Shown piece after piece: positions 12,534 to 62,400 of a DNA stretch of 64,000 bases. The DNA is from Lachnospiraceae bacterium (GTDB lineage Bacteria > Bacillota > Clostridia > Lachnospirales > Lachnospiraceae), in assembly GCA_017619615.1 (NCBI GenBank), contig JAFZRY010000030.1, forward strand, positions 59,276 to 123,275. The letters are read 5' to 3'. The position numbers and the translations under genes were made by a program. The notes below the pieces were generated by a model. The model was not told where the DNA came from. It saw only the letters and a list, made by a program, of their open reading frames with translations, and ran no database searches. Positions within the stretch are counted from its first letter, which is position 1. Every line of letters starts with the position of its first letter.

Positions 12534-12556
12534 TCCGAAACAGGAGGAAAATCCAT

Positions 12557-39735: not shown

Positions 39736-39839
39736 CTGTCCAAAACCGGAAAAGCAACAAAGCACGGACACAGTGCTTCTTTTTTGACACTTTCTTTCTT
39801 TCGCGTTTCCCCCTTTCCCGAAAACCGACGATTTTTCTC

Positions 39840-39868
39840 TTGTAATTTAAGAGAAAAACATATATTAT
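39840..39868 (+). promoter_or_regulatory. promoter of the second giant subtilase gene
   Basis: TTGTAA (39840-39845), 17-bp spacer, TATTAT (39863-39868), aligned with the promoter of the first subtilase gene, with shared CCGAAAACCG just upstream. Confidence 0.8.
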
Positions 39869-39870
39869 TG

Positions 39871-39984
39871 AGAAGAACAAAGCAGATATCGTCTGAGGGC
39901 CTGCGGCGGAACAGGTCCGGGGGGCGTAGTCTACTTACTTTCTGGCGTTTCCACGCCAGGCAAACTAAGAAAAAGGAGAAAGAA
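39871..39984 (+). ncRNA. structured 5' leader of subtilase 2
   Basis: It is homologous to the leader at 31701. It shares GAGAAGAAC, GCAGATATCGTC and the identical GGCCTGCGGCGGAACAGGTC hairpin (39898-39917). The second hairpin is CTGGCG/CGCCAG (39942-39959) with the loop TTTCCA. The C-G to T-A exchange relative to the first leader keeps the pairing. AAAAGGAG follows. Confidence 0.65.
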
Positions 39985-39987
39985 AGA

Positions 39988-42900: not shown

Positions 42901-45900
42901 TTCGACCGCACCTCCGTGATCGACGATGCCTACGGCCTGGGCAAAGAGCCTTACCTGGCCAACAAGGACATCAACTTCATGACCCTGAAGAAGGCCGACG
43001 GCTCCACCCAGACCTACATGGTCAACCCGTACACCATCGAGGATGAATATCCCGAAGGCCGTGAAGCCATCAATCCGGAAGACACCGTCGCTTCCTTCAC
43101 CTACATCAACATCCGCCATCTGGGTTCGCAGTTCTTCGCGGTCCAGAACGAGGAAGGCAAGGTCCTGTATGCCGGCTCCGTCGGCGGGCAGACCTACGCG
43201 CCTTACTACTACGTCAACGGCGGTGCCTGGCAGAACTACGGCACCCGCAAGGCCAACGTCAACAAGGCCCTGAGCGGTCTGGGTCTGGAAGCCGGCGAAA
43301 AAGTGACCATCGGTTACTATGGCGTTCCTGAATACTACGCCATCCAGGCGGCCAAGGACGAAGGCAATGCGCCTACCACGCCTACCCTGACGGTCGACCA
43401 GTTCACCGAACTGCTGGAAGCCGGCCTGATCGAGGACGGCGCTGCCATCAAGTACACCATGACCGTGGATACCGAAGCCCCGGCCGTCTCCGCCGCCCTG
43501 GTGGATGCGATCACCGGCAACATCTATGTCCGCGCTCAGGATGACAACTACATTGCTTACGTAGCCATCATGAACCGCTCCGGTTCCCAGGTCTACTACG
43601 AGACCGTTCCGGAACAGACCGAAAAGGCTCAGGCCCTGGAAGTCCCGATGCTGCTGGAAGGCCTGAACGTGCCGAGCGAGCTGACCCTGCTGGTCGCTGA
43701 CTATGCCGGCAACGAAGCCGCGTTCCAGATCAAGCTGAGCGGCGAGCCCGTCGACTACGGCGGAACCATGATCGGCTTCGTCACCTCCTCCACCACCGCG
43801 GAACCCGGCTCCGGCAACCGCGCCTGGGAGATCGATCCCGAGAACCTGTGGTACAACTACAGCGAAGGCACCTACGGCGGCCTCGGCGTTTACGCTGAAA
43901 TGCAGTTCGCCGTACGCGCTGCTGAATACGTAGACCGCTACGTCTTCATGGCCGGCACGGACGGCTGGCTGTATGCCGCCGAACTGCAGAACCTGGGCGA
44001 AGCGAAGCGCATCAGCAAGTACAGCAACACCGTAGATACCATCTACGACATGGCGTACAACTACAAGAACAAGTCCCTGTACGCTCTGGGCGATGACAAC
44101 ACGATCTATGAGATCAACCTGCTGACCGGCGTCCTGACGCCTGCTGCGATCCTTGATCTGCCCGGTGTGTCCGGCTCCAACGCCGTAGCCAACGGTATGG
44201 CTATCGACGATGACGGCGTCGTGTACATCTCCACCTACGGCAGCACCTACACGAACGGCAAACTGTTCAAGCTGACGCTGCCTGAACCCGAACCCGAAGA
44301 AGAACAGCCCGACCTGCCTGACGGCGTGCTTGCCGGCTGGTATTTCGAGTCCGCTGACGAGATCGACAACTGGACGATGATCGACGCGGACGGCGACGGC
44401 AACAACTTCTACTACAACCCCGGCTCCGGCTACGACAACAGCACCGGCGTGCTGCAGTCCAAGTGGCACACCCCGAGCCCCGATAACTGGGCCATCACTC
44501 CTAAGGTCGATCTGACCGATGCCACCTCGGCGCAGCTGTCCTTCTATGCCCGCTGCTCGTCTTCGACCTGGAAGGAACACTTCGCCGCGTACGTCGGCGC
44601 CACGCCCGACATCGAGGCCATGACGGAAGTCGTCCCCGAGACCGAAGCGGTCCCGAGCTGGACGCAGTACACCTTCGACCTGACCGAGTATCTGGGACAG
44701 GAAGAGGTCTACCTGGCCATCCGTCACTTCAACTCGCTTGACCAGTTCTATCTGTACGTCGACAACTTCGAAGTACTGGGCGAACGTCAGGCTGACGAAC
44801 CCGGTCCGGAAGAACCCGAAGAAACTCCTGTGGTTACGGCGACTGCCGTCGGCTCCCTGAATGTATACAACTACAACAACGCCGGCGCCCTTGCCTTCGA
44901 TCATGACACTGAAACCCTGTATCTGGCCGCCAACTACAACAGCAGCCAGGACTACGACCACTATCTGTGGAAGATCAGCACGAAGAACGCTGCCGCGACC
45001 AGAGCCAACATGAACTTCGGCACCGGCAATGATTCCGGCAACCCGTCCGGCCGTCTGTACGGCGCCGTGAACGGCCTGTTCATCGTGCCCGGCGGTGCTC
45101 ACGTGATCGAGCCCACCGATACCGCTATCGACATCACGGTCGAACCTGCCGAACTGAACCTGCTGAAGGGCCAGTCGGCCGACCTGGTCGCTGCGGTCGC
45201 TCCCTGGACGCTGACCAACACCGACGTGACCTTCGAAACCGCGGATCCCGCTATCGCGACCGTGAGTGAGAAGGGTACCGTGACCGGCGTTGCGGTCGGC
45301 GAGACCGTTATCACGGTCACCACGGATGCCGAGCCTCACCTGACGGCTGAAGTGCCTGTCACCGTTTCCGAACCTCCTGTAGCCGAACTCCGCGGCGTCA
45401 TCTGGAACGAGAACGGCAAGGGCATGGCCTCCGTGTTCTCCACCGATAACACGGCCAACTGGGAAGCTCTGGCCGAAGTCGGCCAGCTGCGCTGGGCTGC
45501 CCGCGTGGACGACGTCCTGTACGGCTCCACCAACGACACCATGTTTGCGGTCGACGCGGACACCTATGAAGTGACCCAGCTGGGCGGCATCGTCTCCGAC
45601 TGGATCCTGTCCGACGGCGACGCGCTGCCTCAGGACTTCCGCGATGCTTTCGCCGCGATGGGCTACAACGTAGGCCCCGTCATCGGCCCTTGCTACGGCG
45701 GCACTTACCTGACCATGATCGATCCCGAAGCCGGCAGCCTGATCTACTTCAACCTGAGCGACACCACCTTCGGCGAAGATCATATGGCCACCTTCACGGC
45801 GGCTGGCCGCGCTGTTTATGACGACGGCGAGGACACCGATGACAACGGCGGTCTGTTCTACGGCCTGACCGAAAGCGGCGAGCTGTATGCCTTCATCATG

Positions 45901-48900
45901 AACCACGAAGGTTCCATTATGTGGACCGACCTCGGCTCCACCGGCCTTGACCTGACCGGCGTCGCTGACGTGACCAACTCCGTCTGGGCCTCCATGGTCT
46001 ACGACTTCGAGAACGAATTCCTGTACCTGTCTCACTACAGCGGCGAAGGCGACTATGCTTACCTGTACGCCATCGATGTCAACGATCCCGCCCGCGTCGG
46101 CGTGACCGGTGACTTCAGAGCGGACGTATGGCCTGCTGTCGGTCTGTACGAGTACACTCCTTCCACCGAACTGTCCCTGAAGGTCAGCCCCGAAAGCATC
46201 GAGGTCTACGAAGGCGCTACTGCCGAACTGAAGATCAAGGTGAAACTGGGCGAGACCAACGAGTACACGGTGGAAGTGGAAGATCCTGAGATCGCTTCCT
46301 TCGCGGACGGCATCGTGACCGGCCTGAAGGAAGGCGAGACCACTATCCAGGTCACCACGGTCGACGTCAACGAAGCCGGCGACCACCTGAGCGTGATCGT
46401 CCCTGTCACGGTCAAGGCTGTCCACGGCGTGGACATCCAGATCGTCGGCCAGGTGACTGACGGCAACGGTTCCCGCTTCGCGGTCATCGACCTGAACGAC
46501 GCGTCCGTCGCTTCGACCGGCGCTGCCGCTCCCGGCAACGTGGATTCCGGCGCCCGCATCGGCGACCTCTACTTCGCCGGCCTTGGCACCACCTACAAGA
46601 TCCTGGATGCGGAAGACTACACGGTCACCACGGCGTGGACCGGCGGTCCTGCTTCGAACTACTACTCCATGTATCCTGCCATGGACGTGGCCAACTACCC
46701 GCAGTTCGAAGCGGATGACGGCACCATCGATGACAGCCGCATGCTGTTCACCGTTGCGCTTGACTGGCTGGTCATGCCGAGCTACTCCGGCTGGAACCTG
46801 TCCAGCTTCCTGGAAGGCCTGGCTGGCGTCTGCTATGCCGGCAACACGCAGCTGAGCGACGGCACTGACGTGAACATCTACTTCCTGCTGACCACGGACG
46901 GCACGCTGTACACCATCGGCATCGATTATGTCGGCGGCCGCCGTACGGATCCTGAGGAATACCTGAGCACCGGCATCGTGCTGCAGAACCAGACCGACGC
47001 TTCTATGGCGTATGTCGAAACGGACGACCTGTACGGTCTTGTTGTTGCGGACAACGGCACGAAGAACGTGTGGTTCATCGACCTTGATACCGAAGAAGTC
47101 AGCATGGTCGGCACCTTGAACGTGACCAACGTTTCCGGCCTGATCGGTACCTACGATGACATCGCCGCTTACGGCGAGATCACGCCTCCGGAACCCGAAC
47201 CCGTAGTCACCGGTCATCTGATCAAGGGCTTCTACTTCGAAGAGGAGCCGACTGACTGGACCTTTGTGGATGCCGACGAAGACGGCTTCAACTGGCAGTG
47301 GCACTTCAACACCGGCAGCGGCAACCACACCGCCTATGAAGGCGACGGCATCATCACCTCCGCGTCTTACGACAATGACTCCAGTACGGCGCTGCATCCG
47401 GACAACTGGGCTATCAGCCCGGCGGTCGACCTGTCCACTGCGGAAGACGACGTGATCGTTTCCCTGTATGCGGTCGGTCAGGATGCCAGCTGGGCAGCGG
47501 AACACTTCGCCGTCTATGCCGGCACCACCCCTGTTCCGGACGAAATGACCCTGGTCATCCCTGAAAGCGTCTCCGGCGGCGAGTATAAGCAGTTCACGGG
47601 CTCCCTGGCCGACTTTGCCGGCGAGGATGAGGTCTACATCGCGATCCGTCACTTCAACGTCACGGATATGTTCTATCTGAACGTTGACCAGGTCGAGTTC
47701 ATGGACCAGCTGGAAGAAGTGACGCCTCCGGAACCCGAACCCGACGTGACCGGCGACCCGCTGTTCACCGAAGACTTCGAAGCAAATCCGACTGACTGGA
47801 CCTTCGTGGATGCCGACGACGACGGTTACAACTGGAACTGGGAAGACGGCACGAACCTTGATTCGGGCTTCTACGAAGGCACCGGCATGATCATGAGCGC
47901 GTCCTACGACAACCCGTCCTACACGGCTCTGACTCCCGACGACTGGGCCATCAGCCCGGCCATCGATCTGAGCACGGCGTCTGCCGACGCGATCGTCTCC
48001 CTGTATGCCAAGGGACAGGATCCCGACTGGGCGTCTGAAGTGTTCGCCATCTATGCCGGCACTTCCACTGACACGTCCGCCATGACGAAGCTGAGCGCTG
48101 ACTTCACTGCCACCGGCGATTGGGCACAGTACACTGCTTCTCTGGAAGACTTCATCGGCGCGTCTACGGTCTACATTGCGGTCCGCCACTACAACGTCAC
48201 GGATATGTTCTTCCTGGATGTCGACTATGTCCAGGTCCTGCACAACCTGACTGACAACGGCGACGCCGCTCACAAGAACGTTCCCGGCGAAGTCGTTGCG
48301 GCTGCTCCTGCGACCCGCGTACAGCCCGAATTCCACAAGGCCGTTCCGGCTGAAGCCAGGTTCTCTGCCTTCCACAAGGCTCTGGGCGACGGCATCGGCC
48401 GCCTTGACAAGGCCATCAACAACAACGTCGAGATGTCCAAGCTCGGCGAGACCGCCAACGAAGTGACCGGCGGCACGAACGCCATCCACGGCGAATCCGT
48501 CCTGTCCGCGCGTCCTGCCAAGCCCGTCCGCGGTGCGGAAGGCACGGCGGAAGACGGTGTCGTGACCGTGACCCTGACCGAAGACGTCGACGTGACCAAC
48601 GGCCTCATCGCGGTCGAGTACGATCCCGAACTGCTGACCTTCATCGGCGGCGGATCCATCTTCGCGCACTGCTCGTGGAATGCGGAAGACGGCGTTGTGT
48701 ACTTCGCTTATGCGGATGCCATCCCGCTGCCCGCCGGTGAAGTCATTGCGACCATCGAGTTCTCCTACACCGAACCGGCTCTGGAGACCGAGCTCACCGT
48801 GACCACGATCGAGCGCAACGACGACGTCAATGTGGATGAAGAACCCACTGTGATCAAGATCGGCGCGTCCGTCATCGTGAACGGCGTCACGCTGGCTCTG

Positions 48901-49755
48901 GACGGCCGGCTGGCGATGAATATGTTCATCACCGCTCCGACCTCCGCTGCCACGGCGACCATGACCTTCCACGGTCAGAACGAGGACGAAGTGACCTTCG
49001 AACTGATCCGCGACAAGGATCACTTCTACAACTCCAAGACCGGCCAGTTCCGTCTGGCTTACAAGAACATCGCGGCAAAGGAAATGACCTGCCCGGTGGA
49101 TCTGAAGGTCTTTGACGCGAACGGCAACCAGATGGCTTTGGTCCGCGCCAACGGCGATCCGGTGGACGGCAACGTCTTCACCTTCCGCGTGGCTGACTGG
49201 GCGAACGCCATCATCGGCAACGAGAACAGCAACGAAGCGTCCGTCAACCTGGCCAAGGCTCTGCTGAACTACGGCGGCGCTGCTCAGGAATACTTCGAGT
49301 TCAACCTGGAAGATCCGGCGAACCCTGAAGGTTACCTGGCTGACGAGACCGCCGCGGTCGAAGCGAACCCGGCTCTGGACGGCGACATTCCGGAAGACGC
49401 GAAGGCTCTGTTCGGCTACTCCGGCCTGACCCTGAACCTGGAAGGCGACACGGAACTGCGTATCTACTTCACCAAGGATGTGACCGCGGTGGACGATGCC
49501 GGTATCAAGCTGCCGCTGAAGACTCAGGGCAAGAAGAAGTACATCAGCATCCCGAACATTGCTTCCGTGGATCTGGACGAGCTGTACCCGATCACCATCA
49601 GCCTGGATGGTCAGGAGCGTGTGTTCACGCTGGCTGCGCTGACTTATGCGAATAAGATCCTGGCGGCCAACTCGAACGAGAAGCTCGTGACGGTCATGAA
49701 GGCTCTGTACGTGTACAACGAAATGGCTGAGATCTACTTCAACAAAGTAGACTGA
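39988..49755 (+). CDS. giant secreted subtilase (S8), expanded paralogue
   Basis: A 3255-residue protease, started at the ATG at 39988 (AAAAGGAG upstream, signal peptide identical in style to the first paralogue); an upstream open extension overlaps the leader RNA. Triad: Asp209 (VAIIDTGID), His298 (NHGSHVTS), Ser671 (SGTSMAAPQ). After His the usual AG is replaced by TS. Dockerin-like loops are at about 841-901, Big_2-like domains at about 1712-1796 and 2060-2145. Three cleaved-adhesin-type domains (about 1448-1599, 2411-2577, 2589-2753) are found where the paralogue has one. A cohesin-like module (about 2858-2945) and the conserved C-terminal domain (2961-3255) end it. Acid-rich Pro-Glu linkers (EPEPEPEE) separate domains. 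Confidence 0.9.
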   Translation: MKNSPLYRRLLSVVLALAMTVALLTPTSLARAAEDTAPAREELELTPVDPSTLDSHTLPEVQPMYEKEPYSAAEEVRVSIVLEKASTIEAGFELEGIAYDAAAKEYRQGLKSDQNEMVARIGQVLGHDLDVKWNLTLIANIISANVLYGEIDAIKAIDGITDVFVENRYELDDAEKDDPATATSALMTGTNVAWAEGYTGAGSKVAIIDTGIDAEHLSFDAGAFEYALAQNAAEKEMSVDEYVASLNLLTADKIDEVADQLNVSVTGSQAYRNAKVAYGYNYVDRSLRIDHQDSGSNHGSHVTSIAAANKYVPVDGGYGPAIDTVGVQGMAPDAQILTMKVFSTSGASDSDYMIAIEDAIILGADSANLSLGSGVAGRTFSDGYERVMNLLVEKGMVVSISAGNAYSWYNTPYNSNMPYGYIYADDVKQDTVGSPGSFPNAFTVASVDNAGQTGMPLKFGDLSVFYTETSGYGNNPISTLSGQDLEYVLLNGPGVDDNAHVGQAGDDFYALGSAVVSGKVAICFRGSSSFFAKANAAVAQGAVAVLIANNTDGSFGMNLTGYNYSAPAVSILQSDGFAIMAQSEKVTTESGLEYYTGSVKISDKMEVSDVDISNGVVTASSFSSWGVPESLIMKPEILAPGGSIYGVNGASALASDNVTTHDQYAAFSGTSMAAPQVAGMAAVMGQYIRENDLTTKTGLSARQLTNSLLMGTANPVYDSDGEYWSILKVGSGLANVGKAVKATSYILMDEDATMFPDSARDGKVKAELGDDPERTGEYSFGFTIYPMGESKEFQLRTDIFTQWLAGNGGYGMLQDYGTILIGADVTYEINGETYENASTLDADVNQDGKTDEADAQAILDHITGWADEEDPFDAEAADVDGDRAITTVDARLILEAAATPTIEITEPTHVTVNIKLDEDDAAFLAYYFGGNFYVEGYTYIEALSNEEGEFLDVDQSIPILGLYGSWTGAAMFDRTSVIDDAYGLGKEPYLANKDINFMTLKKADGSTQTYMVNPYTIEDEYPEGREAINPEDTVASFTYINIRHLGSQFFAVQNEEGKVLYAGSVGGQTYAPYYYVNGGAWQNYGTRKANVNKALSGLGLEAGEKVTIGYYGVPEYYAIQAAKDEGNAPTTPTLTVDQFTELLEAGLIEDGAAIKYTMTVDTEAPAVSAALVDAITGNIYVRAQDDNYIAYVAIMNRSGSQVYYETVPEQTEKAQALEVPMLLEGLNVPSELTLLVADYAGNEAAFQIKLSGEPVDYGGTMIGFVTSSTTAEPGSGNRAWEIDPENLWYNYSEGTYGGLGVYAEMQFAVRAAEYVDRYVFMAGTDGWLYAAELQNLGEAKRISKYSNTVDTIYDMAYNYKNKSLYALGDDNTIYEINLLTGVLTPAAILDLPGVSGSNAVANGMAIDDDGVVYISTYGSTYTNGKLFKLTLPEPEPEEEQPDLPDGVLAGWYFESADEIDNWTMIDADGDGNNFYYNPGSGYDNSTGVLQSKWHTPSPDNWAITPKVDLTDATSAQLSFYARCSSSTWKEHFAAYVGATPDIEAMTEVVPETEAVPSWTQYTFDLTEYLGQEEVYLAIRHFNSLDQFYLYVDNFEVLGERQADEPGPEEPEETPVVTATAVGSLNVYNYNNAGALAFDHDTETLYLAANYNSSQDYDHYLWKISTKNAAATRANMNFGTGNDSGNPSGRLYGAVNGLFIVPGGAHVIEPTDTAIDITVEPAELNLLKGQSADLVAAVAPWTLTNTDVTFETADPAIATVSEKGTVTGVAVGETVITVTTDAEPHLTAEVPVTVSEPPVAELRGVIWNENGKGMASVFSTDNTANWEALAEVGQLRWAARVDDVLYGSTNDTMFAVDADTYEVTQLGGIVSDWILSDGDALPQDFRDAFAAMGYNVGPVIGPCYGGTYLTMIDPEAGSLIYFNLSDTTFGEDHMATFTAAGRAVYDDGEDTDDNGGLFYGLTESGELYAFIMNHEGSIMWTDLGSTGLDLTGVADVTNSVWASMVYDFENEFLYLSHYSGEGDYAYLYAIDVNDPARVGVTGDFRADVWPAVGLYEYTPSTELSLKVSPESIEVYEGATAELKIKVKLGETNEYTVEVEDPEIASFADGIVTGLKEGETTIQVTTVDVNEAGDHLSVIVPVTVKAVHGVDIQIVGQVTDGNGSRFAVIDLNDASVASTGAAAPGNVDSGARIGDLYFAGLGTTYKILDAEDYTVTTAWTGGPASNYYSMYPAMDVANYPQFEADDGTIDDSRMLFTVALDWLVMPSYSGWNLSSFLEGLAGVCYAGNTQLSDGTDVNIYFLLTTDGTLYTIGIDYVGGRRTDPEEYLSTGIVLQNQTDASMAYVETDDLYGLVVADNGTKNVWFIDLDTEEVSMVGTLNVTNVSGLIGTYDDIAAYGEITPPEPEPVVTGHLIKGFYFEEEPTDWTFVDADEDGFNWQWHFNTGSGNHTAYEGDGIITSASYDNDSSTALHPDNWAISPAVDLSTAEDDVIVSLYAVGQDASWAAEHFAVYAGTTPVPDEMTLVIPESVSGGEYKQFTGSLADFAGEDEVYIAIRHFNVTDMFYLNVDQVEFMDQLEEVTPPEPEPDVTGDPLFTEDFEANPTDWTFVDADDDGYNWNWEDGTNLDSGFYEGTGMIMSASYDNPSYTALTPDDWAISPAIDLSTASADAIVSLYAKGQDPDWASEVFAIYAGTSTDTSAMTKLSADFTATGDWAQYTASLEDFIGASTVYIAVRHYNVTDMFFLDVDYVQVLHNLTDNGDAAHKNVPGEVVAAAPATRVQPEFHKAVPAEARFSAFHKALGDGIGRLDKAINNNVEMSKLGETANEVTGGTNAIHGESVLSARPAKPVRGAEGTAEDGVVTVTLTEDVDVTNGLIAVEYDPELLTFIGGGSIFAHCSWNAEDGVVYFAYADAIPLPAGEVIATIEFSYTEPALETELTVTTIERNDDVNVDEEPTVIKIGASVIVNGVTLALDGRLAMNMFITAPTSAATATMTFHGQNEDEVTFELIRDKDHFYNSKTGQFRLAYKNIAAKEMTCPVDLKVFDANGNQMALVRANGDPVDGNVFTFRVADWANAIIGNENSNEASVNLAKALLNYGGAAQEYFEFNLEDPANPEGYLADETAAVEANPALDGDIPEDAKALFGYSGLTLNLEGDTELRIYFTKDVTAVDDAGIKLPLKTQGKKKYISIPNIASVDLDELYPITISLDGQERVFTLAALTYANKILAANSNEKLVTVMKALYVYNEMAEIYFNKVD

Positions 49756-49900: not shown

Positions 49901-49929
49901 TTGCAATTTCCGAAAACACGCGATAGAAT
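49901..49929 (+). promoter_or_regulatory. promoter of the RiPP-like operon
   Basis: TTGCAA (49901-49906), 17-bp spacer, TAGAAT (49924-49929), in a markedly A+T-rich stretch (49850-49930). Confidence 0.85.
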
Positions 49930-49962: not shown

Positions 49963-50061
49963 ATGAAGTATGAAGTAGCTCAGATCGAAGTGATCAACTT
50001 CACTTTCGCGGACATCATCACTGACAGCGAATGCCCTAACGAAACTGAACCCGTTGGTTGA
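49963..50061 (+). CDS. putative RiPP precursor peptide (32 residues)
   Basis: A 32-codon frame, ATG at 49963 to TGA at 50061, with a very strong ribosome site (AAAAAAGGAGGG, 49941-49952) and its own promoter. The N-terminal half (MKYEVAQIEVINFTFADI) is amphipathic and leader-like. The C-terminal part carries one Cys (Cys24) within TDSECPNETEPVG, two prolines, and Ser22, Thr20 and Thr28 as further possible targets. It lies directly upstream of a radical SAM/SPASM enzyme, a PqqD-domain protein and a peptidase, the usual setting for a ribosomally made, post-translationally modified peptide. It does not match a precursor class that I can name, and the leader/core boundary is unknown. Confidence 0.75.
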   Translation: MKYEVAQIEVINFTFADIITDSECPNETEPVG

Positions 50062-50070
50062 GTGAAATAG

Positions 50071-50087
50071 GATCAGCGGAGCTGATC
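50071..50087 (+). repeat. short hairpin after the precursor gene
   Basis: GATCAGC, GGA, GCTGATC: perfect 7-bp stem 10 bases after the precursor stop. It may stabilise the short precursor mRNA. Confidence 0.45.
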
Positions 50088-50120
50088 TCTCCGTTGAATG
50101 AGAGGCGCGCGTCAAACAGC

Positions 50121-50152
50121 AAGGGTGAGGGAGACCTCACCCTTCAATTTTT
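50121..50152 (+). terminator. attenuating terminator between precursor and radical SAM genes
   Basis: AAGGGTGAGG, loop GAGA, CCTCACCCTT (perfect 10-bp stem) followed by CAATTTTT. Partial read-through would give much precursor mRNA and little enzyme mRNA, a common RiPP arrangement. Confidence 0.85.
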
Positions 50153-50214
50153 ATGAAAAGCGGGAGACAGGCCCCGGCCGGCCCCGTCCCCGCCCCAAAG
50201 AAGGGAGAACTTCC

Positions 50215-51618
50215 ATGCGCATCCTGCAGGAAGCCCAGGCGCTCACGCTCCGGCTGCTGGCCGGCCGCGAAGCCCAGACCGAACCGTTCGTTTTCAGCGT
50301 ATACTGCCTGACGGAACCCGTTCCCGGCGGTAGACTGCTTTATCATACCTTAACAAAAGAACTGCTCTTCCTGGAAGACGGCGAAGAGCAGGCGGATTAT
50401 CTGCGCCGCCGTTTCTTCCTAATAGAAGAAGGGACGGACGAACGCGCCGCCGCGCGCGACCTGCGCGGCACACTGCAGTTTTTAGGCCGCAGCCGTCTGC
50501 AGGGCTATACCCGCTATACCATCCTCCCCACCACGGACTGCAACGCCCGCTGCTTCTACTGCTATGAAGCGGGCTGCGAAAAACTGAACATGGCCGCCGC
50601 GGCCGCGGACAGGACCGCGCGCTTCATCCTGGACACCTGCGCCCCGGGCGAACTGACCCTGCGCTTCTTCGGCGGCGAACCGCTGATGGGCGCCGCGTCG
50701 CTGGACCGCATCTGCGAAGCGCTGGCTGAAAACGGCAAAACGTACCACAGCAACATCGTGACCAACGGCTACCTCTTCACCCCGGAGCGGATCCGCAAAG
50801 CCGCGGCGCTGTGGCACCTGAAGCGCGCGCAGATCACGCTGGACGGCACGGAAGAGGTGTACAACGCCCGGAAGGACTTCGTGGAGGACCACGACGGCGC
50901 CTTCCGCCGCGTGCTGGACAATATCGAGGGCCTGCTGCAGGCCGGCATCGCCGTCACGGTCCGCCTGAACATGGACGAAGTCAATCTGCCGGATCTGCGG
51001 ATCCTGGCCGGCCAGCTGGCGCGGCGCTTCGGCGGGTACGCAAACTTTACCGTCTACCCGTTCCTGCTGTTCCAGGACATCCTGTCCCCTTCGCGGGAGA
51101 AGGTGGAGCGGCTGTTCGGTCTGTACCGGGAATTCCGCGCGGAGCTCACCGACGCGGGGCTGTTAAAGCCCGGCAAACTGCCGGAGACCCTGCGGCTCAA
51201 CCACTGCATGGCGGACGACCCCGCCTCCGCGGTGATCCTGCCGGACGGCCGCCTGCATGCCTGCGAGCATTTCACCGAGGGCCTGTTCTGCGGCACGGTG
51301 GACGAGCCGGTGCCGAAATCCGCGACGGAAGCGTACTGGACGGAGGAATTCCCCGAGGACGGCGCGTGCGCGGCCTGCCCGCTGTACCCGGACTGCTTCC
51401 GCATGAAAAACTGCCCGGATCGCGCGGACCGCTGCATCCCGCAGCAGCGCGAGGCGGAGATCGAAAAACTGCGGATCCGCATGCGCGCGGCGTATGATAG
51501 GGCCGTGAACGGCCGGCCCGTGGACGACAACGCCGCAAACGACAGCGCCGCAAACGACAGCGCCGCAAACGACCTCATCGCCGCCGCCCCCGACCGAAAG
51601 GAACCCGACACCCCATGA
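50215..51618 (+). CDS. radical SAM/SPASM peptide-modifying enzyme
   Basis: A 467-residue protein started at the ATG at 50215 (AAGGGAGAA upstream); the frame extends 5' through the terminator without a start signal. The N-terminal ~95 residues may form a small recognition domain. The radical SAM CxxxCxxC motif is Cys109, Cys113, Cys116 (TTDCNARCFYCYEAG), with FFGGEPL as the GGE motif. The C-terminal SPASM region has cysteines in HACEHFTEG, CAACPLYPDC and KNCPDRADRC, enough for auxiliary [4Fe-4S] clusters. The tail carries three AANDS-type repeats. It is expected to modify the peptide encoded at 49963; the chemistry (thioether, C-C or epimerisation) cannot be read from the sequence. It overlaps the next gene by 4 bp. 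Confidence 0.88.
   Translation: MRILQEAQALTLRLLAGREAQTEPFVFSVYCLTEPVPGGRLLYHTLTKELLFLEDGEEQADYLRRRFFLIEEGTDERAAARDLRGTLQFLGRSRLQGYTRYTILPTTDCNARCFYCYEAGCEKLNMAAAAADRTARFILDTCAPGELTLRFFGGEPLMGAASLDRICEALAENGKTYHSNIVTNGYLFTPERIRKAAALWHLKRAQITLDGTEEVYNARKDFVEDHDGAFRRVLDNIEGLLQAGIAVTVRLNMDEVNLPDLRILAGQLARRFGGYANFTVYPFLLFQDILSPSREKVERLFGLYREFRAELTDAGLLKPGKLPETLRLNHCMADDPASAVILPDGRLHACEHFTEGLFCGTVDEPVPKSATEAYWTEEFPEDGACAACPLYPDCFRMKNCPDRADRCIPQQREAEIEKLRIRMRAAYDRAVNGRPVDDNAANDSAANDSAANDLIAAAPDRKEPDTP
51526..51573 (+). repeat. 15-bp tandem repeat in the radical SAM gene tail
   Basis: GACARCGCCGCAAAC repeated three times in frame plus a fourth partial copy, coding for repeated D-N/S-A-A-N. Copy number may vary by slippage. 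Confidence 0.8.
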
Positions 51619-52613
51619 TCAAGATCACCCTCGCCGGCCTCTGCATCGGCATCGAAGAAAACAGCCCGCGCTTCGCGGAATTCATCGCCGGCTACGAGAC
51701 CCCGGACGGAGACCCGGATTTCACCGTCTCCACCACCGAAGAGGACATCGCCTTCGAACAGACCCAGAACGAGCGCCGCGCCCTGCGCGACGACGACGTG
51801 ATGCGCCAGTGGCGCCACGCCTACCTGGAAAAACTTGCGATCTACCGCAAGATCGCCGAGCGCCTGCCCGACTACGGCGCCTGCCTGTTCCACGGCTCCG
51901 CGGTCGCGGTGGACGGCGAGGCCTACCTCTTCACGGCCCGCAGCGGGACGGGCAAATCCACGCATACCCGCCTCTGGCGCGAACACTTCGGCGACCGCTG
52001 CGTCATGATCAACGACGACAAGCCGCTCCTGCGCCTGCAGGAGGACGGCCGCATCTACGTGTACGGCACGCCCTGGGACGGCAAGCACCACTTAAGCAGC
52101 AACATCCGCGTGCCGCTAAAAGCCGTTTGCATTTTGACCAGAGATGAGTATAATCATATTGAACCGCTGGCGCCGGAGGAAGCATATTCGGAACTGATGA
52201 TGCAGACGTTCCGGCCGTCGGACGGGAACGCGCTGATGAAGACCATGGAATTCCTGGACACCCTCACCCGGCGCGCCGGCCTGTACCGCCTGGGCTGCAC
52301 CATGGACCCGGAGGCGGCCGTGATATCTTATGAAGGGATGCAGAAGCATATGAAATTGAAAGACGGATTCAAGACCCACATGGCAGGCGACAAGCAGGTG
52401 ATGGCCGGCGTGGCCTCCACCGGTTTTTCCGGCCTCGTGCGCAGCAACTCCACCGCCGCGTTCATCATCGACCAGCTGAAGACCGAGACCACGGAAGAGC
52501 AGATCGTGCAGGCCGTCCTGGCCCGCTACGAGGACGCTCCCGAGGCCCAGGTCCGCGCGGACGTGAAGAAAGTCGTCGATACGCTGCGCGGCATCAACGC
52601 CCTGGACGAATAA
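51615..52613 (+). CDS. HPr-kinase-like P-loop protein fused to a PqqD-like (RRE) domain
   Basis: A 332-residue protein. After an N-terminal beta-rich region, the Walker A ARSGTGKSTHTRLW (residues 108-121, Lys114) and the HGSAVAVDG strand just before it match HPr kinase/phosphorylase-like proteins. INDDKPLLRL and GTPWDGKHH follow as in that family. From about residue 256 (QVMAGVASTGFSGLVRSNST to the end) the protein resembles PqqD, the RiPP recognition element that binds leader peptides. Related kinases in lasso-peptide clusters phosphorylate the precursor, so kinase action on the peptide at 49963 is a reasonable inference. Coupled by ATGA overlap to the radical SAM gene. Confidence 0.82.
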   Translation: MIKITLAGLCIGIEENSPRFAEFIAGYETPDGDPDFTVSTTEEDIAFEQTQNERRALRDDDVMRQWRHAYLEKLAIYRKIAERLPDYGACLFHGSAVAVDGEAYLFTARSGTGKSTHTRLWREHFGDRCVMINDDKPLLRLQEDGRIYVYGTPWDGKHHLSSNIRVPLKAVCILTRDEYNHIEPLAPEEAYSELMMQTFRPSDGNALMKTMEFLDTLTRRAGLYRLGCTMDPEAAVISYEGMQKHMKLKDGFKTHMAGDKQVMAGVASTGFSGLVRSNSTAAFIIDQLKTETTEEQIVQAVLARYEDAPEAQVRADVKKVVDTLRGINALDE

Positions 52614-52614
52614 A

Positions 52615-53103
52615 ATGAAAGACAGAAAGCAGACCCCGGGAACGGCCCCGGAAGGCGCCGAAGCGCTGGAGGACTATCTGCGCGAACACGGTTCCGTCCT
52701 GTACTGGAACCGCGGCGGCAGCATGCGCCCTCTCATCCGCCAGGACCGGGATCACTTTGTCATCGAAGCCGCCGGCGAAGGCCGTCGCCGTCTCAACGAC
52801 GTCGTCCTTTACAAACGCGCCGGCGGCAAACTGGTCCTCCACCGCATCCGCCGCATCCGCGAACACGACTACGGCCTCCGCGGCGACAATACCTACGTGA
52901 TGGAATACGGCATCACGGCCGCGCAGATCCTGGGCGTCATGACCGCGCTGTCAAGGGACGGCGGGCCCATGCGGCCGGTCACGGCGCTGCGGTACCGAAT
53001 TTACGTGTGGTTCTGGAACGCGATCTATCCGTTCCGGTATGTGCGGGCGAAGGTCCTGCAGGCCGGCAGAGGCGTGAAGCGGCTGCTGCGCGGGAAACGT
53101 TAA
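52615..53103 (+). CDS. small S24/S26-type peptidase of the peptide operon
   Basis: A 162-residue protein, 1 bp after the kinase-like gene. GGSMRPLI with Ser36 matches the catalytic serine box of signal-peptidase-like S24/S26 proteins. LNDVVLYKR and LVLHRIRRI with His76, then LRGDN, resemble the SipW/archaeal type that uses a Ser-His pair rather than Ser-Lys. No N-terminal membrane anchor is seen; a basic amphipathic C-terminal stretch (RIYVWFWNAIYPFRYVRAKVL) may attach it to the membrane. It probably removes the leader of the modified peptide (inference). Last gene of the operon; a hairpin follows at 53152. Confidence 0.78.
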   Translation: MKDRKQTPGTAPEGAEALEDYLREHGSVLYWNRGGSMRPLIRQDRDHFVIEAAGEGRRRLNDVVLYKRAGGKLVLHRIRRIREHDYGLRGDNTYVMEYGITAAQILGVMTALSRDGGPMRPVTALRYRIYVWFWNAIYPFRYVRAKVLQAGRGVKRLLRGKR

Positions 53104-53404: not shown

Positions 53405-56400
53405 ATGAAACATTGCTGGAAACGGGTGCTGGCGGTATTGCTGGCGCTGGCTATGGCGGTTCCGTCGAACGTGTTGGCGGATGGCCGGAAAGGGAGTTCT
53501 ACCACTGTGGAACAGACAGAAACTGTTCCCGCCGGTGAAACTGCCATTGAAAAGCAGGGTGACGAAGCACAGGCAGCAGGTCTAACGATCGAGCTGTCTG
53601 CCACCCGCGCGGATTACGACGGTACAGACAAGAGACCGACCGTAACCGTAAAATATGACGATACCGACGTCACGAACAATGCTTCCATCCAGTGGAAGAA
53701 AGACGGCGTCGAATTGTCAGCCGATGCGGAGTTTATAGAAGTCGGGACGTATAACCTGACGGTGACCTATGAATCGGCAACGAAGACAGCCACATTCCAG
53801 ATCGGAAGAGCCAAGATCGGTGATATGGAAGTCGATATCAGTGATCAGGCTTATACTGGCTTTGCCATTATTCCCGATCCTTCGGATGTGACCTTTACGG
53901 ATTCATACGGGACGACGCACAATGTCACCTATGAGATCACCTCTATCACGAACAACACCAACGTGGGACAGGCGTCCGTAGGCATGACAGGAACCGGCAA
54001 CTTTATCGGTTCCGCCAATGCGCGGTTCAACATTGTCCCTGCCTCATTTGACAATGTGCAGATCAATACTGTCGGACAGTCGTTTGTGATCGGCAACGGA
54101 CAATTCGTTCCGGAGCTGGTGTCCATCAAACTTGGGCAGTATGATCTGACTTCGAGTGATTATACGCTTTCTTATGCGACGGCCGACGGGACGGTGTTAG
54201 ACGCGGCTCCGACTACCGCTGGGACGTATAAAATGATCTTTGCCCCCGGCTCAAGCGGCAGTTTTACCGGCAATGCGCGGGAGATTCCTTTTGAGATCAA
54301 AGATGCCGCGGCTAAGATCGGCGACGTTTATTATGCTTCGCTGGCGGATGCGGTAGCGGCTGCGGCTGCGGGGGATACGGTCGAGATCATCGCAGCGGGC
54401 ACGTATACGCTGCCGAATATTCCTCAGAATATTACGGTTAAGGGGAATGTGGATGGCGTTGTGTTCAGCCACACCGGATCAGGAAATATCTGTAGCATTC
54501 CGAATGGTGTCACTTTCCAGAATGTCACGTTTAACTTTGGCAGTAATAACTACCATGGCTTCCAGCATCCTGGCACCATTAACATGGAAAACTGCACCAT
54601 TAACGGCAAGCTGTTCAGCTACGGTGATATGAACTTCACCGGCTGTACGTTCAACGCCCCCGGTACGGAGGCTTCCGGCATCAGCGGCAAGGATTATTCC
54701 ATGTGGGCTTATTCCGGAAACATCACATACACGGACTGTGTGTTCAACGGCGCAGGCAAGTTCATCAATGTTTATAACGAGACCGGATCTTCTCGTTATG
54801 TGATCACTGCAAACGGCTGCACGTTCAATTCCAGTGAAAAGAATAAAGCGGCTTTCAATGTTAAGGAAACCTGCGGAACCAAAGTTCTTCAGTATACGGT
54901 AAACCTGAGCAATAACACGATTAACGAAAACTTCCCCGAGGCTTCCGAGTCGGATGCCCTTACGATCATCAGCGGCCTGGTACAGGTGGATGACCGGGTT
55001 GCCGGCGGCACGATGGAAGGCGGGGAGATCGTTGTCAATGTGGACAGCGAACAGAAGTATATCACGCCCCGGATGGTCCGCGTGTGCGCGATCGGTGATG
55101 TGGAATATGTGAGCCTGGTGGACGCGCTTAATGCGGCCCAGACCGGCGACACTATCAATATCTATGCGGGCACAGTTGAGCTTCCTGCGACAGCAGTCAT
55201 TCCTGCGGGTGTGACACTGAAGGGCCAGGGCGCTGACGCGACCACGGTCAAGATCACGACCACGAATGGCAATGGCGTGAAGCTTACGAATCCGAACATC
55301 ACGATCCAGGATCTCAAGATCGACGGCAGTGCTATTACGAGCAGCGGATACAATACCATCGTTAACGTAAAGGCTGACGGCTGTGTGATCGACGGTGTCG
55401 TGATGCGCGGCGGCGGACAGAGCACATGGAACTCCTCGATCCTGGTGGATACTATCAATGCTCCGGCCACCTTTACTGTAAAGAATTCCGATATTACCGG
55501 GGCTTTCCGCGGTGTGCTGCGTGAGAGCTGCAATGCGAACCTTGTGATCGAAAACACGGAAATTGATGCGATTTATCCGTTTAACATCGATGGCGGCAAC
55601 GGCGGTACGATCACGGTAAGCGGCAGCAAGCTCCATGGCTGGACGTCTTACAGCGGCGTGGATAGAGTTATCTTTATGAACTGCCAGTTCAGCAAGGGCA
55701 ACAGCGGCTATGACTGCGTTGCGGCCTATGTGGACACGGAGTTCAACGGATGTACTTTTGACAGCACGTTTGACGTTTACGCGCAGACTTCCCCCTTCAA
55801 CTTCTACTTTAATGATTGCACGAAGGCAGGGGAAGCGGTCACCAGAGATCAATTTAAGGAACAGTTCCCTACTGATTCCGATGTCTGGGTAAAGTGCAAT
55901 ACCTACGTGAACGGCGAACTGGTTGGCGCGGTAGCGAAGATCGTATCCGGTGATCAGACTGTTGAGTACAAGACGCTCCAGGCTGCGCTCGATGCGGCTC
56001 ATGAGATGACTGGCGACGTGACGGTAGAGATCATCGCGAACATCGAAGGCTACGCGATTGTCCGTCAGAAGGCTGGTCTGAACCTGACCATCGACGGCAA
56101 GGACAAAACCATTGCGGGCCAGATCATCATCTACGGTGACGGTCGTGCGTCCGGTACGGAAACCTTGACGATCCAGAATGTCAACTTCGAGGACGACAAA
56201 ACGCACTTCTACAACGGAACCGATTCCTTCATTCTTATTCCGAAACCGGCTGACATTTCCGGCTTGCCCGGAACATACAACTATGCCCACAACATCACGG
56301 TGAGTGGCTGCTCCTTCACGAGCACAAGCACGAGTTCTGAACCGGATGTAGTCGGAATTAAGGCTACTAGCAAAGCAGGTGCGTACAATGTTGCGCTCAG

Positions 56401-59400
56401 CAATGTGACTGGCACGAATCTGCACAGTCTGGCGCAACTCACCGGCACGACCGGCGGTGCGTTCACTAACTGCAATGTGACGGCAAGCGGCAGTTTCGTC
56501 AACATTGACGGCGGTGCCGGAGACTTTGACTTTACTAACAATACATTCGTTTCTTCTGCGGATGACGGTTATGGCGTCCGTCTTAAAGGCGCTTCTGAGG
56601 CGGTCATCCATATGGGAGAAGGCAACAACATCACGGCGAACGACGCATTGGTGCTTGGCAAGAGCGATGCGCCGAAGGGCAAGATTATTGTCACCGACGG
56701 TATATACACCGGCAATATCGCAAACAAGATGTCTTCTGCCGGTACCGCTAAGTTCGAGATCTCCGGCGGCCATTTCTCCGTCGAAGTTCCTCGGGAATTT
56801 TGTGCGACCGGTTATGTACCGGGCAACGGTATGTGGGCTGCCGAGACTCCTGCTACCCCGAACGGCGTCACGATTGGCGTAGCGAGGATCGGCGAGACCT
56901 ACTATGCGACTCTTGCAGAGGCGGTAGAGAGCGCCCAGTCCGGTGACACTGTCGTCTTGGTGGTTGACGTCAGAATGATCGAAGGCATCGAGATCAACAA
57001 GACCGTCACCATCGACCTGAACGGCAAGACCATCGACTACGGCGGAATCGAACTGTTTGACGTGACCGCTAACGGCGATTTGACCATCACCGGCAACGGC
57101 GCGGTGACCGGACTTGAAGGCGCTGCAGCGGCAGCTCAGGACAGCAAGGCACTGATCACTGTAGACGGCGGGAAATTAACCATTGTTAACGGTACCTTCA
57201 CGGTCGGCGGCGTCGGCGCCGACGGTATGTATGGGGTGTATGTGCTGGATAACGGCACGACGATTTTCGGTACGTCCGAAGGCGGCCCGACGATCACTTC
57301 CTGGTTCGCTGCCATTGGTACGAACAACACCACGGCACCTGCGAACATTACGGTCAATGGCGGTACTTACACGACGAACGCGACGCCGGCGAACAATGAA
57401 TGGTGGAGCTACTTCTGCGCGCCGATCTATGCGGCAGCCAGCGGCACCTACAACATTAACGGCGGCACGTTCAACGGCTACTATGGTATTTCTGACCGCT
57501 ATGCCAACGTGGAGCAGACGGTCCAGCTCGGTAATGTGACTATCAATGCAACGTCCGGCACGCAGGTCTTTGTAGATGACGAGACCGGTTCTGAAGGAAT
57601 TACAAACCGGACGATCAAGTCGACGAGCAACGAGCTGACAGTCCCCGAGGGATACTGCTGGCAGAAGATCGGCGACAACGAGTATCTGCTTGCGGTGGCG
57701 GTTTGCAAGATCGGCGACACGCTGTATGCGTCGCTGAAGGACGCCGTTGCGGCAGTTCCGGCCGACGGTACCGCGACCACGATCGTCATGATCGCAGATG
57801 AGACGATCGATGTTTCGGGTTATGCGGTTACCATTCCCGCAAACAAGAATGTGGTTCTTGACCTGAACGGCAAGACGGTAGTCGGTGCCTGCTCTACTAC
57901 CGGGACTTCCGCGCTGATCCGCAACCTGGGCACCCTTACGATCGAAGACAGCAGCGCGGATGCAAGCGGCAAGCTGATCGGCGGTGCGGATCCGACCTGG
58001 ACTTGGGACGGCTCTGACGACTATACCGGCAGCTACGCGAGCAATCTGATCAGAAATGAGGGCACGCTAGTCGTTAACGGCGGTACGCTCTACAACGCCA
58101 GCTCGGGCAGCGCGGCCTACGCGATCGATAACTATTCCGCCGGCCAGGTTACTATCAACGGCGGCGTAATCGATGCAAAGAAGGCTTCCGCGATCCGTAT
58201 GTTCTATTGCAACGGCGGTGCGATCACTGTTAACGGCGGCACGATCGGCCATTACACCAGTGACGAGGATTATTCGTACATGGGCATCCAGGTGATGGCC
58301 GGTACAAACTCCGATGTCGTTGTTAACGGCGGCACCATCGTTGGCATGTATGCCTTGTACAGTTCCGGCACCGGGGACAGTTCCGTCAGCATTTCCGGCG
58401 GCACCTTTGACGGTTATGTAGGCTTTAGCAGCGACGGCCCCGATAATGTTGAGATCACGGATGGTCTGTTTCTTTACTGGGTCGGGACCTGGGGAGACCA
58501 GACCGGCTTCATCTCCGGCGGCACATATGCTGTGAAACCGGATGCAGAATACATCGCTCCCGGCAAATGTGCCATTAAGAGCGGTGAATATTGGATCATC
58601 GGCGACGCGGTCGCCCAGATCGGCACGATCGGCTATGCCACCCTGGCGGAGGCCGTTGCGGATGCCGTGAACGGCGATGTCGTTGAACTGCTGATGGACG
58701 CTTCCGGCGCCGGCATCTTCCTTGCCACGGCGGACGCCAAGAACATCACCATCGAACTGAACAATCATACCTATACGGTCACCGGCCCTGCGGTCGGTTC
58801 AGCCGGCACGGTATCCCAGGGCTTCCATCTGGAGCAGGGCAACACCGTTACCATCAAGAACGGCACCATCAGCTCCACGGCGGACAGCGGCGTATTGATG
58901 CTGGTCCAGAACTACTGCAACCTGACGCTGGACGGTGTCACGCTGGACGGCACGAACCTGCCCGGATCGAACCGTTACGTCCTGTCCAACAACTGCAGCA
59001 ACGTGGTGATCAAAGACACCACGATCAACGCCAAGGACGGCGACTTCGCCTTTGACGTCTGCCGTTATGCCACCTATCCTTCCGTCAGTGTGACGGTCGA
59101 GGGCAACAGTGTGATCAATGGCAACATTGAGATCTCCGCCTCCGGCAATGACGCGAACGAAGGCTTTACGCTGGCCATAAACGGCGGCACTTACAACGGC
59201 CAGATCATTCTGGATGCGTCAGCTGAAGCGGCTATGGAGGCCACGCCGGACAAGGTCAGCATCACGAAAGACAATACCGTCGATGTGGCCGCGCCTGCCG
59301 GCTATGCCTGGAAGGATCTTGGAAACGGAAGAAGCACGATCGCAAAGGCTGTTGCCAAGATCGGCGATGCGTTATATGCCTCGCTTCAGGATGCCCTGAA

Positions 59401-62400
59401 TGCGGCCCATGAACTGATCGGCGACGTGACGGTGACGCTGCTTGCGGACATTACGGAAGTTGCCGTTATCCATCAGAAGGCCGGCCTGAACCTGACTGTC
59501 GACGGCGACGGCAAGACCATAACCGGCCAGCTCTATGTCGACGGCGACGGCAGATACAATGACACTGACACTCTGACTATTCAGAATATCAAGTTTGCCT
59601 ATGACGCTGCGACGTACGACGATGCCTTCATCGACGTGCCGAGCACCAAGACCGAGGGCAAGATCTACACCACCGGCAAGTACAATTACGCACACAACAT
59701 TACCGTTAAGGATTGCGAGTTTGCCGGTGAAGGAACTACCACCGTTGCCTTCCGTGTGGCTTCGGCTGCCGGAGCGCACAATGTTACGCTTGAAAACCTG
59801 ACCGTAACCGGCGGCCACAGCTTCGCTCAGCTCGTTGGTGTCAAGGATCTTACCATTACCGGATGCACCGTAAGTGGCACCGAGAATGGTATCAACATCA
59901 GCGGCGGAGACGGAACGGGTGTGATCTCAGGTAATACGCTTGCTGCGGAAGGATATTCCGTAAGAATCAAGGGCGGCAGCGGAATGGATGTGACGCTGAG
60001 TGATAACACCTTCAGTGGTGGAAGCGGCCTTGTAAGCGAGGCCACTGGCGGCGGCAAACTCACCGTTGTATCCGGCAAGTACGCCGGCCCGCTTCCCACT
60101 GACAAAACCAAGTTCACCGTCTTGGGCGGTGTCTTTACCGTGGCGCCTCTCCTTGCCGTCTGCGGCGAAGGCCTGTACCCGATCGCCAACACCGATCCGG
60201 AAACAAAGGATGATTATCCTTATACCGTAGGCGAGGCAGTAGCGTTAGTTGATAATTTCGGCTATACCACCTTTGCCGACGCGGCTGAGGCGGCTGCGGG
60301 TACTAAGACGATCAAACTTCTTGCGGATATTCCTGAAGCATATGTGATGGCAGCAGATGAAGTCCTGATCGTTGAAAAAGGCGATTTCTCGCTGACGGTC
60401 AATGCTCCTGACGGCTATATCCTTTCATCGGAAGTCGCCGAAGGAATCACAACGTATACTGTGAAAAAGGGAATCGCGAAGATTGGCGATACGCTGTATG
60501 CTACCCTCGCTGACGCCGTCGCGGCTGTCCAGGATGGCGAGACCATCGTCATGCTGGGCAATGACACCAAGAACCTTGTCATCAACAACGGCAAAACCTT
60601 TACCATCGATCTGAACGGGCAGACCCTGAGCGGCGGCTATGTCGATCTCTACAGCGGTTTCCTTACCGTTAAGGACAGTGCGGAGACGAAGGGCGCGTTC
60701 AACAAGCTCGTTTACGCGAACGTCGGAGCGGATGAAACGAAGGGTGTCGGCGAGTACAACCTCTTCAAACTCGATTCCGGCGTGACGATGAACAACAATG
60801 TCTATGTGTACCAGAACAGCACTGAAAAGGGCTACGGCACGCAGGTAGACATCGACGGAACCATGAACGGTCTGGTCTTCGTCCTCGGCAACATCCTTGA
60901 GGGCAACACGACCGTGAACGTGCGCGGCACGATCAACAGCCCGGACGATGTCGCTGTTGCGCTCTGCGGTTACGCGGAGGTCAACGTCTATGAGGGGGCG
61001 TACATCGAGGCCAAGGACAATAACGGCAAGGGCGTCGGCATCGAGGTCCGTGCCGGCAAGCTGAACGTTTCCGGCGGTACCATCGTCGGCAACGGTACGG
61101 CCACCGAAGTGAACGCCAACGGCAGCGGCACGACCACCACAGGCGCCGGCATCGCGGTCAGCCAGCATAACACGAAGCTGCCGATCGAGGTGAACATCAC
61201 CGGCGGCACGATCACGGGCCACACGCCGCTCTACGAAAGCAACCCGCAGGGCAACAGTGCGGATGACCTTGCGAAGATCACCCTGAATGTCTCCGGCGGT
61301 ATTTTCGAAGCCGCCGAGGGCAGCACGGAGGTCGTTTACTCCGAGGACAAGACCGGCTTCATCACCGGCGGCAAATACTCGCTGGAGCCCGAGGCCAAGT
61401 ACATTGCGCCCGGCAAGGCTGCGGTCAAGGACGGCGATTACTGGATCATTACCGAAGCGGTCGCCAAGATCGGCGACGCCTACTTCGGCACGCTGGAAGC
61501 TGCCGTAGCCGCGGCGGTCAACGGCGACACCATCGAGATCCTGAAGGATATCGAAGTGACCAAATATGTCGAGATCGGGAAGACCGTTACGATCGACCTG
61601 GCCGGACACACCTTAAGCCGTACGAACGGCAACGCGCTCCTCAACCCGATGGGCAGCGGCACCACGCTGACGCTCAAGGATACCGTCGGCGGCGGCAAGG
61701 TCGTCAGCGGCATCCCGGCCTATGTTGAGGACGGCGCGGCCTTCATTCAGGAATCCGGCAGCCTGGAGTCCGCCGGCAACATGGGTATCTATACCATTGG
61801 CGGCTCTTCTGTAACGATTAACGGCGGAACTGTCACCACCACCGGCGACATGGCTATCTGTGCCGACACCGGTGCCTCCGTAACGATCAACGACGGCACG
61901 GTATCTGTGGCAGAAGATGATGCCTATGCCATCTGCCTCTTCGGCACGGCCAGCCTGACGGTCAACGGCGGTACGGTCAGCTCCACCGGCAACAACGGCC
62001 CTGCAATCGGCACCAACGGCAGCGCCGGCAACAATAACACCATCACGATCAACGGCGGCACGATCACGTCCGCGAAGGAGATCGCCATCTTCAAGCCCGA
62101 CGCCGGCACGCTGACGATCAACGGCGGCACGATCACCGGTACGACGGCTGTCTACCAGAAGAGCGGTACCGTGAATATCACCGGCGGCACGCTGCACGCG
62201 ACCGGCACGGCGGCCGACTTCGCCCACAACCCCAGCGGCGCTTATTCGACCGGCGACGCGCTGGTCGTGGAAGCCTGCGATTATCCGGGCGGTGCGCCTG
62301 TCACCAACATCACCGGCGGCCGCTTCATCTCCGACAACGCCGCGGCCGTAGCCTCCTACGCGATGGCAGGCTACGAGCCTCTGACCGGCTTCATCCACGG

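Follow-up and report, generated by a model that had tools for sequence, protein, structure and literature searches.

We analysed a stretch of 64,000 nucleotides from a Lachnospiraceae bacterium (contig JAFZRY010000030.1), referred to here as the window, and found that a small operon of four genes at 49963-53103 on its forward strand very probably makes a chemically modified short peptide. Comparison with relatives makes it fairly probable that the operon encodes a pathway akin to those of ribosomally synthesized and post-translationally modified peptides (RiPPs), related to lasso peptide biosynthesis but without the lasso B2 protease, in which the peptide is tailored by a kinase and undergoes a radical S-adenosylmethionine (SAM) step; the modifications and a role at the cell surface are what we infer from the genes. 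The giant secreted proteins encoded next to the operon may be part of the same system.

The four genes encode a peptide of 32 residues, a radical SAM/SPASM protein of 467 residues, a 332-residue fusion of a kinase resembling HPr kinase (HPrK) with a PqqD domain, and an S24/S26-type peptidase of 162 residues, and their homologues indicate that all four are real and conserved. This is the gene set of the original prediction, which had been made from the DNA of the window alone, and profiles and invariant residues bore it out. Its reading as a RiPP-like operon was right in kind and too narrow, as the operon is one local form of a wider cassette, and it left out the giant secreted neighbours as possible members of the system. 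Judged by sequence likeness, the source is a Lachnospiraceae-like rumen bacterium: the closest named records found for the kinase-PqqD protein are metagenome-assembled Lachnospiraceae genomes from goat omasum (94% and 89% identity over the best segment). Below, L-numbers denote fetched loci and G-numbers genomes of the family sample. The operon comprises the following features.

49901..49929 (+), sigma-70-like promoter of the peptide gene, TTGCAA-17-TAGAAT, from a consensus scan and kept in relatives
49963..50061 (+), precursor peptide of 32 residues, from reading frame and profile, with leader YEVAQIEVINFTFADIITDS and a core of about SECPNETEPVG
50121..50144 (+), terminator-like hairpin (attenuator) in the gap between peptide and enzyme genes, from folding and conservation
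50215..51618 (+), radical SAM/SPASM peptide maturase of 467 residues, from profiles and invariant cysteines
51615..52613 (+), HPrK-like domain (residues 1 to about 246) and PqqD or RiPP recognition element domain (PF05402, residues 272-326), from profiles and a structure model
52615..53103 (+), S24/S26-type peptidase with S36/H76/D91, from weak profiles and invariant residues

The peptide encoded at 49963-50061, MKYEVAQIEVINFTFADIITDSECPNETEPVG, has the ribosome site AGGAGG and is the same letter for letter in three species of the genus (the window, L032 and L033); a precursor of this family is present in 8 of 16 genomes of the genus. Over the 99 bases of its gene there are three silent and no coding differences to L032 and none at all to L033, while the radical SAM enzyme shows lower identity to the same copies (84% and 96%, respectively). 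The promoter element TTGCAA-17-TAGAAT has 9 of 12 consensus matches and is retained in both relatives (L032 and L033) with minor changes. The scan found three such sites against a mean of 1.0 in shuffles and is thus weak on its own. The predicted attenuator was upheld: the hairpin at 50121-50144 has 10 pairs followed by CAATTTTTAT, its stem is identical in both relatives with a slightly different tail in L032, and 50062-50154 folds at -35.4 kcal/mol (z -4.19), with equally stable folds in 0 of 200 shuffles. Rfam had no match at the hairpin site.

The peptide belongs to a wider family of precursors. A first profile from ten peptides was run over 20,174 start-to-stop stretches of 20-90 residues in the fetched loci and gave strong E-values for further members, reversed stretches giving nothing better than E 10; a larger profile then yielded 53 distinct precursors, six of them with E above 1e-6. 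The family consensus is Y-E-x-P-E-[MI]-E-[VI]-[IV]-x-F-E-x-E-D-[VI]-I-T-T-S-G, followed by a mostly acidic core. When 51 precursors were anchored on the Tyr/Phe, Asp stood at +14 in 43 and Ser at +19 in 42, and 32 of the 51 leaders had YxxPx[LMIV]. Among the 42 members with Ser at +19 the cores are 6-31 residues long and hold 170 Asp/Glu against 14 Lys/Arg in 690 residues. A short conserved precursor with a leader and a variable core, encoded with enzymes, is what is generally expected of a RiPP. The original prediction had staked itself on conserved peptides upstream of the homologous radical SAM genes, and related peptides do lie directly upstream of that gene in the window, L032, L033, L042 and L056. 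Genome G162 has two radical SAM genes with related peptides on the same contigs, one of which (L122, with a weak score) is upstream of a PqqD-radical SAM pair, the others not being directly upstream; around the radical SAM enzyme of G676 (L125) no related peptide was recognised. Separately, four scattered precursors of G334 (L173-L176) have cores ending in WSDFF, FSDFY, GWTGLF and WSDFYDF, aromatic ends that are similar to each other and unlike the NELPIEPVG-like cores elsewhere.

Of 397 genomes in the family sample, 33 gave a match to the kinase domain at E 1e-25. The precursor was found in 21 of 358, of which 20 also have the kinase and 11 a protein with the C-terminal domain (CTD) described below; in these figures the kinase and CTD counts (33 and 14 genomes) come from the sample of 397, and since the precursor and CTD profiles were built mostly from kinase-linked loci, precursors and CTDs of kinase-free genomes may be under-detected. 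Counting same-strand genes within 6 kb at 49 kinase loci, some of them distant or cut by contig ends, gave PqqD in 33, an S24/S26 peptidase in 32, an ATP-binding cassette (ABC) exporter in 19, a nucleotidyltransferase in 17 (PF14907 in the two members scanned) and a radical SAM gene in 5. On these counts the usual cassette is the kinase, PqqD and the S24/S26 peptidase, and these are often joined by an ABC exporter and a PF14907 nucleotidyltransferase.

The fused tail of the window kinase is, by its profile match, a true PqqD domain (PF05402, E 1.5e-12, residues 272-326), and the lasso PqqD model NF033530 reached 32.6 bits on the fusion, under its cut-off of 70. A predicted model of the kinase part resembles the structures of PEPCK and HPrK; H93, K114 and D135 are invariant and D134 nearly so in 21 kinase sequences. 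The protein has the HPrK fold, P-loop and His-Lys-Asp-Asp of an HPrK-like kinase. Lasso kinases require a His-Lys-Asp-Asp motif (PMC9266682, in the part available), and our residues were matched to it by their order, without aligning a lasso kinase. The fusion is clear only in the window, L032 and L034, with L051 as a weak and distant case, and the kinase and PqqD are separate genes in L033 and most other loci; on this distribution the fusion is lineage-specific. In a lasso pathway B1 accelerates the kinase BsfK, and the leader motif for B1 is YxxPxL (PMC10368454, in the part available). Because B1 speeds BsfK and the leaders of our family carry YxxPx[LMIV], kinase and PqqD in one chain would be a plausible shortcut. 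At L037 a gene that by eye resembles a true HPr kinase/phosphorylase (12269-13201) lies directly after a kinase-PqqD-peptidase-ABC-nucleotidyltransferase cassette.

Profile matches to the peptidase are weak alone (PF00717, E 0.17; TIGR02228, E 0.0014; scores below the cut-offs). Across 18 peptidase sequences including that of the window, S36, M37, H76, R77, G90 and D91 are invariant, which agrees with the Ser-His type first predicted, and by this pattern the enzyme is an S24/S26-type peptidase with Ser-His-Asp. The Ser-Met, His-Arg and Gly-Asp motifs are presumably those of the endoplasmic reticulum-type branch of S26 signal peptidases. No N-terminal membrane anchor was seen by eye in the window peptidase. 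The four-gene operon has no exporter gene; this had been noted before and is true of the operon, but not of the wider system with its ABC exporters. In L106 (3909-6191, -) and L117 (7293-9407, +) a single reading frame is matched by the S24/S26 peptidase profile and by Pfam ABC families, with about 175-185 residues preceding the ABC part, the pattern expected if the leader peptidase were coupled to export. These frames resemble peptidase-containing transporters, but with a peptidase of the serine type.

The radical SAM gene starts at 50215. In five homologues including the window's, the cysteines singled out originally (C109, C113 and C116) are invariant, as are Cys 331, 350, 385, 388, 394, 400 and 407, which by their spacing we take to be the SPASM cysteines. 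Among the 25 of 58 NCBIfam matches shown, the scores are scattered over many maturase families and far below the cut-offs, so that the reaction is not readable from a family; the PapB model NF047865 gave 72.9 bits against a cut-off of 340. A core Cys is present in 5 of 6 precursors of genomes with the radical SAM enzyme and in 0 of 47 others (Fisher 2e-6), a split made partly by eye and over four genomes only, and on this count the radical SAM gene is an add-on that accompanies cysteine-bearing cores. Four of the five Cys cores have S-x-C and then Asp/Glu three or four places after the Cys; the window core has CPNE, L042 CGGGD, L199 CPIKD and L123 CPGD. A thioether linkage between the Cys and the Asp/Glu is predicted; PapB links Cys to Asp/Glu with spacers of 0-6 (PMC9413430, in the part available).

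We propose that the PqqD domain binds the leader (Y-x-x-[PA]-x-[IML]-E-[VI]-[IV]-x-F), much as B1 binds lasso leaders, and that the conserved Ser or Thr of D-[VI]-I-T-x-S receives a phosphate from the fused kinase. The radical SAM enzyme would join the core Cys (S-x-C) to the nearby Asp/Glu as a thioether, the S26-type peptidase would cut the leader off at the T-x-S motif, an ABC exporter encoded elsewhere would carry the product out, and the peptide would act outside the cell, probably with the adjacent large secreted protein. Enzymes of the signal-peptidase type (S26) prefer small residues at -3 and -1, and the small residues of T-x-S at these places suggest cleavage just after the Ser; lasso logic, with Thr at -2, would put it just before the Ser.

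Several observations weigh against this pathway. In the YxxPxL motif of the window leader, Pro is replaced by Ala and Leu by Ile, and changing the YxxPxL residues of BsfA to Ala did not abolish phosphorylation (PMC10368454, within the part available), so docking need not steer the kinase. There is no Ser, Thr or Tyr beyond the conserved Ser in 14 of the 42 cores, so that the kinase target is the conserved Ser/Thr, another group or not the core; of the candidate phosphosites the conserved T-x-S is the best. In genome G343 a precursor was found and, at the cut-off used, no kinase, and many kinase loci have no recognisable precursor. The radical SAM enzyme comes nowhere near any of the NCBIfam cut-offs shown (its top score is 99.1 against 525 bits among those 25 of 58 matches), its association with Cys is based on just four genomes, and L122, the weak-scoring precursor from a radical SAM genome, is without Cys. 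An exporter for the window genome was not located.

It is possible, if doubtful, that the kinase instead activates a hydroxyl or carboxylate for a later step by the PF14907 enzyme, such as the addition of a nucleotidyl or sugar group; a scheme of this kind has been put forward for PsmK/PsmN in pseudomycoidin. The nucleotidyltransferases at 17 of the 49 kinase loci and the acidic cores suit this explanation, as does the addition of hexoses to phosphorylated Ser by PsmN in a lasso pathway (PMC9266682, in the part available); against it, a nucleotidyltransferase gene is absent from the window operon, the rest of the genome not having been searched for one.

The surface role proposed for the peptide comes from its neighbours, the gene before it encoding a 10-kb secreted S8 protein.

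31817..39685 (+), tandem paralogue of the secreted S8/CTD protein, from its CTD match
39733..49755 (+), giant secreted S8 subtilase with cleaved-adhesin and Big_2 domains and a C-terminal CTD, from profiles
53405..64000 (+), giant secreted protein with a signal peptide, placed after the operon and running off the window

The likely true start of the S8 protein is 39988, where a signal-peptide-like N-terminus begins, and its dockerin-like match is below the cut-off. The CTD is its C-terminal 289 residues (48886-49752), for which Pfam gave no family match. Of the 397 family genomes, 14 gave a match to a CTD profile; 13 of the 14 have the kinase, where about 1 would be expected (hypergeometric 1e-14). 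A CTD gene on the same strand and no more than 350 nt away directly adjoins 16 of the 53 precursors, preceding 14 of them and following 2, and in eight of the 16 (L040, L144, L179, L180, L183, L196, L197 and L199) the genome's kinase is on another contig, which in a draft genome may still be near. Next to 37 of the 53 precursors, on the same strand, is a gene whose product has a predicted signal peptide or a CTD. Non-cassette neighbours bear a signal in 20 of 37 cases upstream (p 2e-4) and 18 of 24 downstream, compared with 46 of 202 background genes, by a simple predictor that also counts membrane anchors. Peptides beside large secreted proteins point to an undescribed cell-surface peptide system, the surface role being predicted from this proximity. 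We think it unlikely, though worth serious consideration, that secreted proteins adjoin the precursors by clustering in variable regions without a functional link. Signal-peptide genes are common in the background, the upstream effect is moderate, and the window genome has 10 CTD matches and one precursor, so the pairing is not one-to-one; the kinase in 13 of the 14 CTD genomes, and the eight precursors that adjoin a CTD gene on contigs where no kinase was found, argue for a link. The two subtilases of the window stand in tandem, share cleaved-adhesin and Big_2 domains and dockerin-like matches below the cut-off, and have CTDs 90% identical; the signal-peptide-bearing protein directly after the operon exceeds 3500 residues, and the window ends where the contig ends.

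For the radical SAM enzyme it seems improbable that it forms another bond (a sactionine, a C-C link or an epimerisation) or acts on the secreted neighbour, the peptide being a guide or regulator. Such a role would be in keeping with scores spread over maturase families, none near its cut-off, and with the many precursors, the majority, that occur without this gene, but the core Cys tracks the enzyme. That the operon belongs to a lasso pathway with its cyclase and B2 protease elsewhere in the genome is very hard to uphold: leader motif type, PqqD, HPrK kinase, nucleotidyltransferase and ABC exporter are all as in rumen lasso clusters, but PF13471 (B2) was found in 0 of 4 cassette genomes, G000 included (a control search matched 2 of 14 named genomes), an S24/S26 peptidase is in its place, and some cores of just 6-12 residues are short for a ring plus tail. 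No lasso cyclase was recognised by eye beside the inspected cassettes, no profile search having been made.

Kinase-bearing lasso clusters (paeninodin PadeK, ThcoK, BsfK/BsfB1, pseudomycoidin PsmK/PsmN; rumen Butyrivibrio and Lachnospira) are the closest known systems to the pathway that we propose. They share with it a leader that has a conserved Thr near its end and, in many of our precursors, a motif of the Y-x-x-P-x-L type, as well as PqqD-type docking, the HPrK-like kinase with His, Lys, Asp and Asp and, in relatives, the nucleotidyltransferase and ABC exporter. Unlike them, it has an S24/S26 peptidase instead of the transglutaminase-like B2 protease, not found in the four genomes searched, a radical SAM enzyme in some of its loci, dispersed precursors that adjoin secreted proteins and, in the window, a kinase fused to PqqD. 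The ranthipeptide pair PapB/PapA (freyrasin) is alike in its radical SAM/SPASM enzyme and perhaps in the short spacing from a core Cys to an Asp/Glu; the low PapB score, the single short core and the kinase and S26-type peptidase companions set our system apart. In SynChlorMet, ScmC resembles the kinase part, ScmD the PqqD part and ScmE/F the radical SAM enzyme, all weakly and below the models' cut-offs (ScmC 25.3 against 125, ScmE 41.8 against 400, ScmD 13.7 against 100 bits), and we know of no S24/S26 peptidase in that set. With QhpD/QhpE of quinohemoprotein amine dehydrogenase, a radical SAM enzyme makes Cys-to-Asp/Glu thioethers in a small polypeptide whose partner is a large secreted protein, and an S8 protease is nearby; the window enzyme gave just a weak NCBIfam match to it (33.5 against 453 bits). 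If the proposal is correct, this would be a RiPP branch that keeps the lasso docking domain and kinase type with other chemistry and a signal-peptidase-like leader peptidase; a review devoted to the proteases that remove RiPP leaders (PMC10885120) uses none of the words S24, S26 and signal peptidase in its main text. The natural kinase-PqqD fusion would also offer a compact system in which to study the control of a peptide kinase by its docking domain.

At eight loci the precursor has beside it a small gene whose product, here called a tether, is of low complexity and either membrane-anchored or lipoprotein-like. The gene is downstream with a likely start within about 110 nt in L038, L102, L110, L182, L189, L193 and L197, and 83 nt upstream of the precursor in L181. 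In G022 the tether ends DEDGWTTIIVKP and EYELPFIPVG resemble the adjacent cores DEDGWTVIIVKP and EYELPFIPNKP, and one tether holds an internal DNEIPFDD that is present in the core of a third precursor; in G183 GWTGYY and GWSGYY are found at a distance of 1.8 kb. The copied ends show silent differences in their DNA, which means that the resemblance is maintained in the protein. By their aligned ends, membrane-anchored proteins clearly copy the core in G022 and plausibly in G183; for most precursors no copy of this kind is seen, and the window has none. We would suggest, as a speculation that is rather unlikely to hold, a surface-assembly system of Lachnospiraceae in which one cytosolic cassette (lasso-type kinase, PqqD, S26-type peptidase, ABC exporter, nucleotidyltransferase and optional radical SAM enzyme) serves small acidic peptides, possibly scattered, each beside a large secreted protein and sometimes beside a core-copying tether. 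Peptide and tether would show the same motif to the same extracellular site, so that the peptide bridges, blocks or releases a surface protein. If this pairing is borne out for secreted proteins and tethers, the role of RiPP enzymes in gut and rumen bacteria would extend beyond antibiotics or signals to cell-surface architecture. Three same-genome tether-core pairs, all from G022, outscore all 1013 cross-genome pairs, and the tethers of this genome are as follows.

L181, 4208-4942 (+), tether with strong likeness
L182, 4271-4870 (-), tether with strong likeness
L183, frame at 3327 (-), tether with weak likeness

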